Assembly: GCA_030646295.1 (NCBI GenBank)
Contig: JAUSND010000024.1
Coordinates: forward strand, 237,607 to 301,606
Source: Moraxellaceae bacterium
Lineage (GTDB): Bacteria > Pseudomonadota > Gammaproteobacteria > Pseudomonadales > Moraxellaceae
DNA length: 64,000 nt
Direction of reading: 5' to 3'
Shown: piece by piece, positions 59,689 through 64,000 of the stretch
How the letters are laid out: every line of letters begins with the position of its first letter
Numbering within the stretch: the stretch's first letter is position 1
Translations under genes and position numbers: made by a program
Notes under the pieces: generated by a model
The model's database searches: none
What the model was told of the DNA's origin: nothing
The model's input: only the letters and a program-made list of their open reading frames with translations

Positions 59689-60237
59689 TCAGCTGCCTGC
59701 CGCCATCTGCTCCAGCTCGACACGCGCCTCGTCCAGCCAGCGCAACCAGTCCTGCTCGTACAGGATGCCGCGACGCAGGGTGAGGTAGGGCAGACGGTAG
59801 GGCACCCTCTCCTCCGGCGTCATGGCCAGAAACCGTGCCTCGCTGGCGCGGTATTCCTCAAGACGCTCGCGATGCAGCACTGCATGCTCCTCCAGCTCGG
59901 CCAGCAACTGTGCCGGCGGCACATTCAGGCCGCCATAGACCTTCACCAGCAGCGCATCATTCACCTTGGGCGGCCTGACCGGCTGCAGCCGCCATTCGGC
60001 CAGTGCTGACTGCCCCGGCGGGGTCAGCCGGTACACCTTGCGGTCCGGCCGCTCGCTCTGGTGCTCCACCTCAAACTCCACCAGGCCCTCGCTGTTCAGC
60101 TTGCCCAGCTCCTGATACACCTGCTGGTGGCTGGCATTCCAGAAGTGGCCTATACCAGCCTTGAAGTGGCGCATCAGGTCATAGCCCGAGCCAGGGTCGC
60201 TTTCAAGCAGGGTGAGAATGGCGAAACGCAGGGACAT
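59689..60237 (-). CDS. PadR family transcriptional regulator
   Basis: MSLRFAILTLLESDPGSGYDLMRHFKAGIGHFWNASHQQVYQELGKLNSEGLVEFE winged helix; start at 60237. Confidence 0.88.
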   Translation of the reverse strand: MSLRFAILTLLESDPGSGYDLMRHFKAGIGHFWNASHQQVYQELGKLNSEGLVEFEVEHQSERPDRKVYRLTPPGQSALAEWRLQPVRPPKVNDALLVKVYGGLNVPPAQLLAELEEHAVLHRERLEEYRASEARFLAMTPEERVPYRLPYLTLRRGILYEQDWLRWLDEARVELEQMAAGS

Positions 60238-60259
60238 GGCAGCCACAGATCCGGTTTGT

Positions 60260-60318
60260 ATATGCAAAGTATTGCATATCATCGCGTTCTGACGTATCAC
60301 TATGCAACTTATTGCATA
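60260..60318. promoter_or_regulatory. Twin palindromic operators, probably for the adjacent PadR regulator
   Basis: ATATGCAA-AGTA-TTGCATAT (60260-60279) and TATGCAA-CTTA-TTGCATA (60301-60318) in the divergent intergenic region. Confidence 0.75.
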
Positions 60319-60349
60319 TGATTTATCCACTACCCGAAGGAGACACCCC

Positions 60350-61984
60350 ATGAAGCGCACAGGACGCCGCTACCGTAACGGCCGGGCCGAAGGCCACTAT
60401 GACGCCATCGTGATCGGCTCCGGCATTGGCGGGCTGTGCAATGCCGCCCTGCTGTCAAAGATGGGCAAACGGGTGTGCGTTCTGGAACAGCACTACACGG
60501 CGGGCGGCTTTACCCACTCCTACGAGCGCGAAGGTTTCGAGTGGGATGTCGGCGTGCATTACATCGGCGAGATGAACAAGCCCTCCATGCTCAAGCGACT
60601 GTTTGACGTGATCTCGGACGGCCAGTTGAAGTGGGCCGACATGGACCCGGTCTATGACCGCATCACCGTCGGTGAGCGCACCGTGGATTTTGTGGCCGGC
60701 AAAAAGAATCTGGCCGACTCACTCAAGGCACATTTTCCTGACGAGGCCGATGCCATTGATGCGTATATCGCACTGGTCAGCAAGGTCGCCGGCTCGGCGC
60801 AGAAATTCTATGCCGGCAAAGCCATGCCGCGTCTGGCCGGCAAGGCCTTTCACGCCATTCGCCCGCTGCTGGTGCCAAAAGAATGCTTCATGACGGTACG
60901 TGAAGTGCTGGAAGGCCTGACCAAAAACCAGGAACTGATTGGCGTGCTTGTCGGCCAGTGGGGCGACTACGGCATGGTGCCGTCCGAAGCCTCGTTCATG
61001 ATGCACACCTCGGTGGTGAAGCATTATTTCAACGGCGGCAGCTATCCGGTGGGTGGCTCGTGGAAAATGGCCGACACCATCATTCCGGTCATTCGAGCCG
61101 CCGGTGGCGAAGTCTTCACGTATGCAAAAGTGAAAGAAATCCTGATTGAAAAAGGCCGTGCCACCGGCGTTGTCATGGACAACGGCGATGTGCTGCATGC
61201 CGATGCCATTGTCAGTGATGCCGGTGCCAGCATTACCTTCAACTCGCTGCTGCCAGAAGCCGAACGCCAGCGCTACGGGTATGCCAAGCACATGCAGAAA
61301 GTTAAGCCGTCTGCAGCGCATCTGTGCCTGTACGCAGGCTTCAAGGGCACGGCAAAAGAACTGGGCATTCCGCGCACCAACTTCTGGATTTATCCCTCGG
61401 CCGACCATGAAGGCAACGTTGCACGTTACCAGGCCGACAAGAATGCACCGTTCCCCATGCTCTACATTTCCTTTCCCTCCGCAAAAGACCCGGAGTGGGA
61501 TGCCAACTATCCGGGCAAGAGCACGGTAGAAGTGCTGAGCTTTGGCCCGTGGGAATGGTTTTCGAAATGGGACGGCACCACCTGGAACCAGCGTGGCGAG
61601 GAATACGAAACACTGAAAGAAAACTTCCGCCTGCGTTTGCTGGACGAACTGTACAAGCAGATGCCGCAACTGAAAGACGCACTGGTGTATGCCGAACTTT
61701 CAACACCACTGTCCACCGCCTGGTTCCAGATGAATGCCAAGGGCGAGATTTACGGACTGGACCATGACGTGCAGCGCTTCAAGCAGGACTGGCTGCATCC
61801 GGTAACGCCGATCAAGGGCCTCTACCTGACCGGGCAGGATATTGTGTCCGGTGGTGTCGGCGGCGCACTGGTGGGCGGCATGATGACCACCAGTGCCATG
61901 CTCGGCAAGGATGCACTCAAGGTGATGAAACTGCTGAAAGAGTGGCGCCCCGCAGAAGCCACCGGCAGCGCCGTACCAGGCTGA
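60350..61984 (+). CDS. FAD-dependent phytoene desaturase/retinol saturase-like oxidoreductase
   Basis: YDAIVIGSGIGGLCNAALLSKMGKRVCVLEQHYTAGGFTHSYEREGFEWDVGVHYIGEM; C-terminal GLYLTGQDIVSGGVGGALVGGMM. ATG 60350 with GAAGGAG upstream. Confidence 0.85.
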   Translation: MKRTGRRYRNGRAEGHYDAIVIGSGIGGLCNAALLSKMGKRVCVLEQHYTAGGFTHSYEREGFEWDVGVHYIGEMNKPSMLKRLFDVISDGQLKWADMDPVYDRITVGERTVDFVAGKKNLADSLKAHFPDEADAIDAYIALVSKVAGSAQKFYAGKAMPRLAGKAFHAIRPLLVPKECFMTVREVLEGLTKNQELIGVLVGQWGDYGMVPSEASFMMHTSVVKHYFNGGSYPVGGSWKMADTIIPVIRAAGGEVFTYAKVKEILIEKGRATGVVMDNGDVLHADAIVSDAGASITFNSLLPEAERQRYGYAKHMQKVKPSAAHLCLYAGFKGTAKELGIPRTNFWIYPSADHEGNVARYQADKNAPFPMLYISFPSAKDPEWDANYPGKSTVEVLSFGPWEWFSKWDGTTWNQRGEEYETLKENFRLRLLDELYKQMPQLKDALVYAELSTPLSTAWFQMNAKGEIYGLDHDVQRFKQDWLHPVTPIKGLYLTGQDIVSGGVGGALVGGMMTTSAMLGKDALKVMKLLKEWRPAEATGSAVPG

Positions 61985-61989
61985 CCGCC

Positions 61990-62733
61990 ATGCGCCATAT
62001 CGTTGCCACTCTCCTCGCCCCCCCCCTCTCCACCCTCGTGCTTGGCCCGGTCCTGCTGCTGCAGGGCCGGCATGTGCGCAAGGTCACGCCCAAGTTGCCA
62101 GAGCCACCCGGTGAGCGCAGCGGCATTACGGGCAGCGGCCCCGAATTGCGTTTGCTCATTCTCGGCGACTCGGCCGCAGCAGGCGTGGGCGCCCCGCATC
62201 AACGCGACGCCCTGCTGGGCCAGCTGGTGAATGCACTGGCAAAGGATTTCTGTGTGCACTGGACGCTGCATGCGTGCACAGGGCACACCACGCAACAGGC
62301 CCTTGCCCATCTGGCACAACTGCCACCACAACCGTTCGACATGGTGGTGACCTCCATCGGCGTGAACGACGCCACTGCCGGCACCGCCACCAAACGCTGG
62401 CGGCAACACATGATGGAGTTGCTGCACACACTGGAAGAGCGGCACGAAGCGGGCCACATTCTGGTTTCCGGATTACCACCCATGCACCGCTTTCCCGCGT
62501 TACCACAGCCGTTGCGGTGGTATATGGGAATGCGGGCAGCCGCGCTTAACCGCGCGTTGCAGCAACTGTTAGCGGACAATCCGCGACGCCAACTGGTGGA
62601 GGTCGCGTTTTCAGATGATGCAGGGCTTATGGCCAGTGACGGGTTTCATCCTGGCCCGGGGGCTTATGCAGAGTGGGGGAGGATCGTGGCGGGCATTGTG
62701 CGGGAGCGACTGGAAGAGCAACTGCAGCATTAA
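61990..62733 (+). CDS. SGNH/GDSL hydrolase
   Basis: LLILGDSAAAGVGA block I, VVTSIGVNDATAG block III, SDGFHPGPGAYAEWG block V. Confidence 0.85.
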   Translation: MRHIVATLLAPPLSTLVLGPVLLLQGRHVRKVTPKLPEPPGERSGITGSGPELRLLILGDSAAAGVGAPHQRDALLGQLVNALAKDFCVHWTLHACTGHTTQQALAHLAQLPPQPFDMVVTSIGVNDATAGTATKRWRQHMMELLHTLEERHEAGHILVSGLPPMHRFPALPQPLRWYMGMRAAALNRALQQLLADNPRRQLVEVAFSDDAGLMASDGFHPGPGAYAEWGRIVAGIVRERLEEQLQH

Positions 62734-62792
62734 AAGGCAGAAGCTTGTCAGGAGACTGCCTTATACACTTGACTTGGTGATCACAGTCGCTT

Positions 62793-62799
62793 GTTAGGT
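62793..62799 (-). other. Cassette boundary: RYYYAAC-type attC core site on the minus strand (truncated attC)
   Basis: Plus strand GTTAGGT (minus ACCTAAC, continuing ACCTAACAAGCGACTG) just after the stop of the minus-strand cassette gene; no matching partner core site found toward 62700. Confidence 0.5.
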
Positions 62800-62807
62800 T
62801 TGTGCTA

Positions 62808-63701
62808 TCAAAACCCAATCTTCCGTAATCGGCTCATGAATTGTCTGGCAAGGCCTTCCCTTCTTGGCTTTGTGGATAGAAGATGCCTTACAAGCTCCTC
62901 TTTCCCAGTGAAGTTTGCCAACAATTCAGTGGCCTCAAGGAAGCTGGGAAGGTGATCCTTAGTTACGACATGGACGCAGTAGCGGTCACTGGAATCATGC
63001 GGATTAAATCTCCAGGGGAGCTGCACCATTGCCACACTCCAGTTGGATTTTTCAAGTATAGGTTCACCACTACTACTAAGTGTGACGTTGTAAAGAGGCG
63101 CATCTACTACCAAGCAGGCCACATGGAATTCGAATATATTTCTGTCCTGTATGTGCAAGCTGAGATCGGAGTGGCTATTCTCAAAAAATTCTTTCTGAAG
63201 TCGGCGATGATAGGTTGAGGCCGTTACCAGCCCCATAAGCCCGCTGAACAAGTGCGCATCAGAATTGCTGAATGCAGAGACCAAACTATAGGCTGATGGG
63301 CTATTTGAGGAAAACCCACCAACCGCATAGATTCGCTCCTCTTCCTGCATTCTCATTAGCGTAATGCAGGCCATTGCATTTGGACTTGGTAGATCTTCTG
63401 GATCCCCGTGAAACAGTTGGTATTCGAACTTCGGCTTGACTTCATTGCTGGCGCAAAGGGCCAGCACTGGCTTATCGGATTTTTTGCATTCAAAAACAAT
63501 TTTTCTGCAAATTACGTAAGAACCGCCATCGAACCCATGGTGGTAGCCAACGACATCTATTTCCCGAGGCTGATTAGTGTTGACGTCAACGTAAAGATCA
63601 GACTTCGAGCATAAATAGCCTCTTTTCTGGAGCTCTGCGGCCACATACAGCTCAAGAGGATAACCAGATTTTTCCAGCCAATCTTGAATTTTCTGTTCCA
63701 T
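62808..63701 (-). CDS. Integron-cassette-encoded protein with PD-(D/E)XK nuclease-like N-terminal region
   Basis: 297-aa ORF; YPLELYVAAELQKRGY...REIDVVGYH...KIVFECKKSDKPVL fits E/D/ExK nuclease-fold pattern. Start codon lies 9 bp from the attC core site. Confidence 0.7.
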   Translation of the reverse strand: MEQKIQDWLEKSGYPLELYVAAELQKRGYLCSKSDLYVDVNTNQPREIDVVGYHHGFDGGSYVICRKIVFECKKSDKPVLALCASNEVKPKFEYQLFHGDPEDLPSPNAMACITLMRMQEEERIYAVGGFSSNSPSAYSLVSAFSNSDAHLFSGLMGLVTASTYHRRLQKEFFENSHSDLSLHIQDRNIFEFHVACLVVDAPLYNVTLSSSGEPILEKSNWSVAMVQLPWRFNPHDSSDRYCVHVVTKDHLPSFLEATELLANFTGKEELVRHLLSTKPRREGLARQFMSRLRKIGF

Positions 63702-63710
63702 TTGTTGAAA

Positions 63711-63768
63711 ACCTAACGTTGGAATTGAGCGGCTGGCGCAGCCAGTCCGCTCGAATGACGGGTTAGGC
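63711..63768 (-). other. attC: attC recombination site (integron cassette)
   Basis: Minus strand GCCTAAC-CCGTCATTCGAGCGGACTGGC-tgc-GCCAGCCGCTCAATTCCAAC-GTTAGGT: RYYYAAC and GTTRRRY ends with an imperfect inverted repeat containing an unpaired base. Confidence 0.88.
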
Positions 63769-63866
63769 CTACCACTTTCTGGCGTAATTGCTTTTTATGG
63801 TTGCAGAGATGTATGAGTTCAAGCCGTAACCTTGAGCTGCCAAAGTTTTCAACCTATCGACGGGTT

Positions 63867-64000
63867 TTACCCCGCTTCCACGGACAGTTGAGTTAAGACT
63901 AAATCATTCCCTTTAAGCATTTCCAGCTGCCGACGTTTTCTCGGGTTATGGAAGCGCTCAATGTAGTCAAAAATATCGGCCCTGGCTTCTGCTCGAGTCC
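63867..64000 (-). mobile_element. C-terminal fragment of an IS3-family transposase (runs off right edge)
   Basis: Minus frame ends ...RAEARADIFDYIERFHNPRKRRQLEMLKGNDLVLTQLSVEAG*, typical of the IS3-family integrase-core C-terminus. Confidence 0.75.

Follow-up and report, generated by a model that had tools for sequence, protein, structure and literature searches.

A predicted PD-(D/E)XK nuclease gene stranded as the last cassette of a chromosomal integron array in a Moraxellaceae bacterium

Introduction

Does a lone gene that begins beside an attC site still belong to a gene cassette that can move, and what would the nuclease that it appears to encode do for its host? The locus that raises these questions lies in a gammaproteobacterial draft genome of 3.1 Mb, in the final 64 kb of one contig. 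This stretch of 64,000 nucleotides is referred to here as the window, and its end coincides with the end of the contig. A sequence-only reading of the window had proposed a compact, well-formed integron cassette on the minus strand, carrying a gene for a protein with a restriction-endonuclease-like motif. The boundaries of this cassette, the integron to which it belongs, and the family and possible functions of its product are considered below.

The attC site and the integron of the genome

The end of the window holds three features of the array:

63711..63768, minus strand: attC of the preceding cassette, forming the 5' boundary of the nuclease-gene cassette (covariance model and fold; hairpin on the plus strand of the window)
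63769..63859, minus strand: what is left of the preceding cassette at its 3' end, after interruption by an insertion sequence (boundary set by identity with contig C7)
63860..64000, no strand assigned: end of that insertion sequence, inside which the window and the contig stop

The attC site is real. Plain pattern and fold searches missed most attC sites, and a covariance model (R1) was used instead, trained on 11 attC sites from contigs C6, C11, C5, and C7 of the same genome, with the site of the window excluded. The stem of this model exhibits double-sided compensatory changes in 6 of its 21 pairs among the sibling sites. The attC at 63711-63768 is the sole match of the model in the window (35.7 bits, E 6.6e-8); Rfam gave no useful attC match. 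The site holds the R''/R' cores, the inner stem, and the unpaired bases, and prefers to fold as the bottom strand (-16.2 kcal/mol, versus -14.8 kcal/mol for the top strand), with a fold energy 4.2 standard deviations below that of dinucleotide shuffles, none of which was equally low (0/500). The attC proposed from the sequence was thus borne out to the exact position, both by its covariance-model score and by its fold, and the minus-strand direction read for the array proved correct.

As the window ends with its contig, the rightward search for an integrase and for further attC sites, which the sequence-only reading had suggested, was made through the other contigs of the genome. About 27 matches to R1 are distributed over six contigs. 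The genome holds a single integron integrase (TIGR02249, 475.9 bits, contig C6), the only match over the family cut-off, and none of 14 control genomes gave a match above it. A 141-bp overlap joins the end of C6 with the start of C11, and attC sites continue in the first 8.6 kb of the latter. Both the window contig and C7 terminate in the identical 141 bp of insertion sequence, which a reading frame suggests to be of IS3 type, and the start of C5 carries the apparent other end of such an element. The nuclease gene has a GC content of 46% (GC3 49%), compared to 58% for the window and a GC3 of about 71% for its neighbours, and is an acquired gene. The covariance model, the TIGR02249 integrase, the 27 attC matches, and the low GC content of the gene support its membership of the integron. 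Like a CALIN, the visible stretch has an attC and a cassette with no integrase; unlike a CALIN, however, the contig breaks inside an insertion sequence, and the complete integron on C6/C11 may connect to it.

On C11, a solo end that resembles the end of the window's terminal insertion sequence lies within an attC remnant (L016:3432-3489), and two mutually similar cassettes with no long ORF (L016:2143-2810 and L012:12518-12812) are located towards the end of the array that bears the integrase. At about 186-193 kb of C8 (L046:3097-10219), a NACHT/NCAB2 protein of 1521 residues is encoded between two weak attC-model matches, and the same stretch bears a SLATT_5 gene (PADLOC RTasSLATT, 102 bits) and a DUF4062 gene, making it a possible defence cluster. 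C8 also holds a gene for a 367-residue RelA/SpoT-domain protein near attC-model matches (L045:3689-4792).

A cassette without its own attC

The cassette and its distal surroundings comprise the following features:

62808..63701, minus strand: ORF of the cassette, 297 residues, predicted to have a PD-(D/E)XK-type nuclease domain at the N-terminus, followed by a C-terminal domain of beta-rich and helical parts
62793..62799, minus strand: isolated R'' half-core ACCTAAC, all that remains of the truncated attC of this cassette
62779..62790, minus strand: GCGACTGTGATC, likely trace of the attC loss (identity with the end of an IS110/IS1111-type element on contig C11)
61942..62733, plus strand: GDSL lipase/esterase gene, a conserved chromosomal gene at which the array ends on its distal side, both in this species and in its sister species

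The ORF is intact and starts 9 bp past the GTTAGGT core of the attC, just inside the boundary as had been read, and the ACCTAAC core is found 8 bp beyond its stop codon. After this core, the sequence continues as AAGCGACTGTGATC and shows neither L boxes nor a stem or R' core, and an unfiltered covariance scan of 60001-64000 found no attC at this position. The cassette therefore lacks an attC of its own, retaining only the 7-bp half-core, and is probably no longer mobile. A complete cassette with two attC sites is ruled out by the same scan. Of the compact, well-formed cassette first proposed, the 5' attC, the intact ORF, and the core near the stop codon stand, but the 3' attC is destroyed.

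The 12 bp of GCGACTGTGATC exactly match the end of an IS110/IS1111-type element on C11. This element interrupts an attC, encodes a DEDD transposase (PF01548 and PF02371), and lies beside the same attC half-core. With up to one mismatch allowed, the 17-mer at the joint, AACAAGCGACTGTGATC, occurs at only two sites in the genome, namely here and at the attC/IS110-type junction on C11. The simplest reading of the loss is the insertion of such an element into the last attC, followed by a deletion, an account inferred from a short match, these 12 bp beyond the core. Elements of the IS1111 family that target attC sites are known (PMC11187229). Like the IS1111-attC insertion sequences (Tetu and Holmes 2008; Post and Hall 2009, both as cited in PMC11187229), the element on C11 adjoins the R'' core of its attC, whereas the window retains only a 12-bp end-like remnant. 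The C11 element (L016:889-2142) interrupts its attC, the remainder of which is found on the other side of the element.

The lipase region of the sister species (G004) shares 93% identity with the window as far as position 62754 and diverges from there. The attC array of that species likewise ends at the lipase, but with different cassettes; at that array end (L062:6653-8847), DUF4917 and DUF4238 genes take the place of the nuclease gene. The nuclease gene was not found in the 97 other related genomes searched. With its 3' attC absent, and with a half-core followed by a 12-bp match to an IS110/IS1111-type end, the gene is the stranded last cassette of a chromosomal integron array, located beside a conserved lipase gene. 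An attC-targeting element of this type, through its insertion and the subsequent deletion, probably destroyed the attC of the cassette, so that excision by the integrase would no longer be possible. The gene would thereby be fixed beside the lipase, with expression only given transcription from upstream or from within the gene, and the cassette would now be immobile and perhaps silent.

A predicted nuclease of a rare family

The protein has nothing credible in Pfam, NCBIfam, PADLOC, or PHROGs, and a sequence search of the Protein Data Bank gave no match. A Pfam similarity to Ntox11 (E 0.095) scored far below the family cut-off and was therefore dismissed as chance. Used alone as the query, the protein found no relatives in the genome and viral collections. 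A whole-genome search located the family in 5 of 369 genomes of the class (its own and four others), a scan with a three-member alignment added relatives from Endozoicomonas, Limisphaerales, Tritonobacter, Nitrospirae, Nocardia, and Streptomyces, and more homologues are carried on plasmids of Enterobacter, Priestia, and Leptospira. No family member was found in viral and phage collections, nor in E. coli genomes searched at the DNA level. The family is rare, patchy, and unnamed.

An alignment of 12 divergent members from several phyla holds G13, E17, E47, D49, and K73 invariant, with R46, E71 (10 of the 12), and C72 nearly so. In the window protein, the motif reads E17...REID49...E71-C-K73. 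The E...EID...ECK pattern of the sequence-only reading is thus almost invariant across the family, with its aspartate, formerly numbered D51, corrected to D49. The predicted structure of the protein is of moderate quality (pLDDT 67), and the model of a homologue, built from the same seven sequences, reaches a pLDDT of 81. The nuclease domain is predicted to comprise approximately residues 1-87, with E17, E47, D49, E71, and K73, and the helix, the strands, and the motif-bearing strand are predicted in an order consistent with a PD-(D/E)XK core. Among the top structural matches of the homologue model are AF1548 (probability 0.95), MspJI, MGME1, R2 endonuclease, and Cas4, and those in a viral structure set include UL24 and phage restriction enzymes and exonucleases, also of the PD-(D/E)XK type. 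The matches belong mostly to this fold, all with E values above 0.001 and low TM-scores, and the assignment follows from the motif and from the concordance of many weak matches rather than from a single strong one. Motif conservation and predicted fold thus lend good support to a PD-(D/E)XK nuclease of predicted activity, in agreement with the fold likeness first proposed. The protein shares the E / D / E-x-K active-site pattern and the predicted core with AF1548, MspJI, and the Shedu nuclease SduA, but it differs from them in its own C-terminal domain, in matching no PADLOC model, and in having no detectable sequence similarity to solved structures.

Possible functions of the cassette gene

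The homologues are mostly lone genes, located between an alcohol dehydrogenase gene and sucD in Endozoicomonas, and between mutS and nadA in another genome (gene names as read from sequence). The Streptomyces homologue shares its cluster with two type IV restriction enzymes (PADLOC 1909 and 536 bits) as well as with an NsnA-like protein, and another homologue is found about 3 kb from an OLD/GajA-type (OLD/Gabija-type) ATPase. Known defence genes are therefore present beside 2 of 10 chromosomal homologue loci, most loci having no known defence neighbour among the subset of neighbours scanned. No neighbour gene is conserved among the homologues, the cassette holds no partner gene, and PADLOC matched neither the window protein nor the four homologues scanned.

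These two loci, the plasmid homologues, and the anti-phage cassettes of Vibrio favour a single-gene restriction-type defence nuclease, a prediction that is given slightly less than an even chance. The two loci near defence genes, the patchy distribution, and the lone gene make a defence role plausible. According to this prediction, the C-terminal domain would recognise incoming phage or plasmid DNA, and the N-terminal nuclease domain would cut it. Chromosomal integrons of Vibrio store anti-phage and defence cassettes (PMC12409362); about 10% of V. cholerae cassettes were anti-phage-active in one test (PMC12409362), and the base rate for such a function is consequently low. Also counted against defence are the lack of a PADLOC, Pfam, or NCBIfam family, the weak structural matches, the few defence neighbours, and the lack of a promoter-like site. 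As a single small gene that adjoins attC sites within a chromosomal array, the cassette resembles the defence cassettes of the sedentary chromosomal integrons of V. cholerae and V. parahaemolyticus, among which restriction-type genes have been reported (PMC12409362). However, it differs from them in its protein family, in its missing 3' attC, and in having a function that is only predicted.

The nuclease might instead act in DNA repair, recombination, or element maintenance rather than in immunity. Weak similarities of homologues to Pfam UPF0102/YraN and Hjc, a weak NCBIfam YraN match of one of them, and a damage-repair protein gene about 0.5 kb from a plasmid homologue point in this direction. 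Nevertheless, the patchy distribution, the lone insertion amid housekeeping genes (in Endozoicomonas and at the mutS-nadA locus), and the two neighbourhoods with defence genes argue against such a role, which is considered unlikely. Toxin-antitoxin cassettes are common in chromosomal integrons, and the product could be a toxin or an abortive-infection effector nuclease, for example one that stabilises the array, held in check by itself or by an antitoxin not yet recognised. The presence of MazEF and RelE genes close to the homologue on the Leptospira plasmid and the sub-threshold Ntox11 similarity, probably due to chance, would fit this role, but it is improbable for a cassette with no partner gene whose homologues have no conserved neighbour. 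Equally hard to favour is a silent, stranded relic, intact but unexpressed and with no present function, as the scan that found no promoter-like site for the cassette covered the sigma-70 consensus only and the ORF retains every motif residue, despite the distal position of the gene in the array, the insertion sequence interrupting the upstream cassette, and the loss of the cassette's own attC.

Significance

The defence reading can be extended to a widely scattered, unrecognised family of PD-(D/E)XK nucleases that would act as single genes against phages or plasmids, present in Gammaproteobacteria, Limisphaerales, Nitrospirae, and Actinomycetes and on Enterobacter, Priestia, and Leptospira plasmids. 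In the present genome, an integron would have carried the gene, and the loss of its attC would then have fixed it in the chromosome. This broader account is put forward as a proposal more doubtful than secure. The protein family is new, and its setting is a known kind of place. A small nuclease family missed by current defence catalogues thus joins the candidate integron-borne defence genes. Furthermore, the locus offers a concrete route from a mobile cassette to an ordinary chromosomal gene, through the loss of an attC, a loss that apparently took place at the end of an insertion sequence targeting attC sites.
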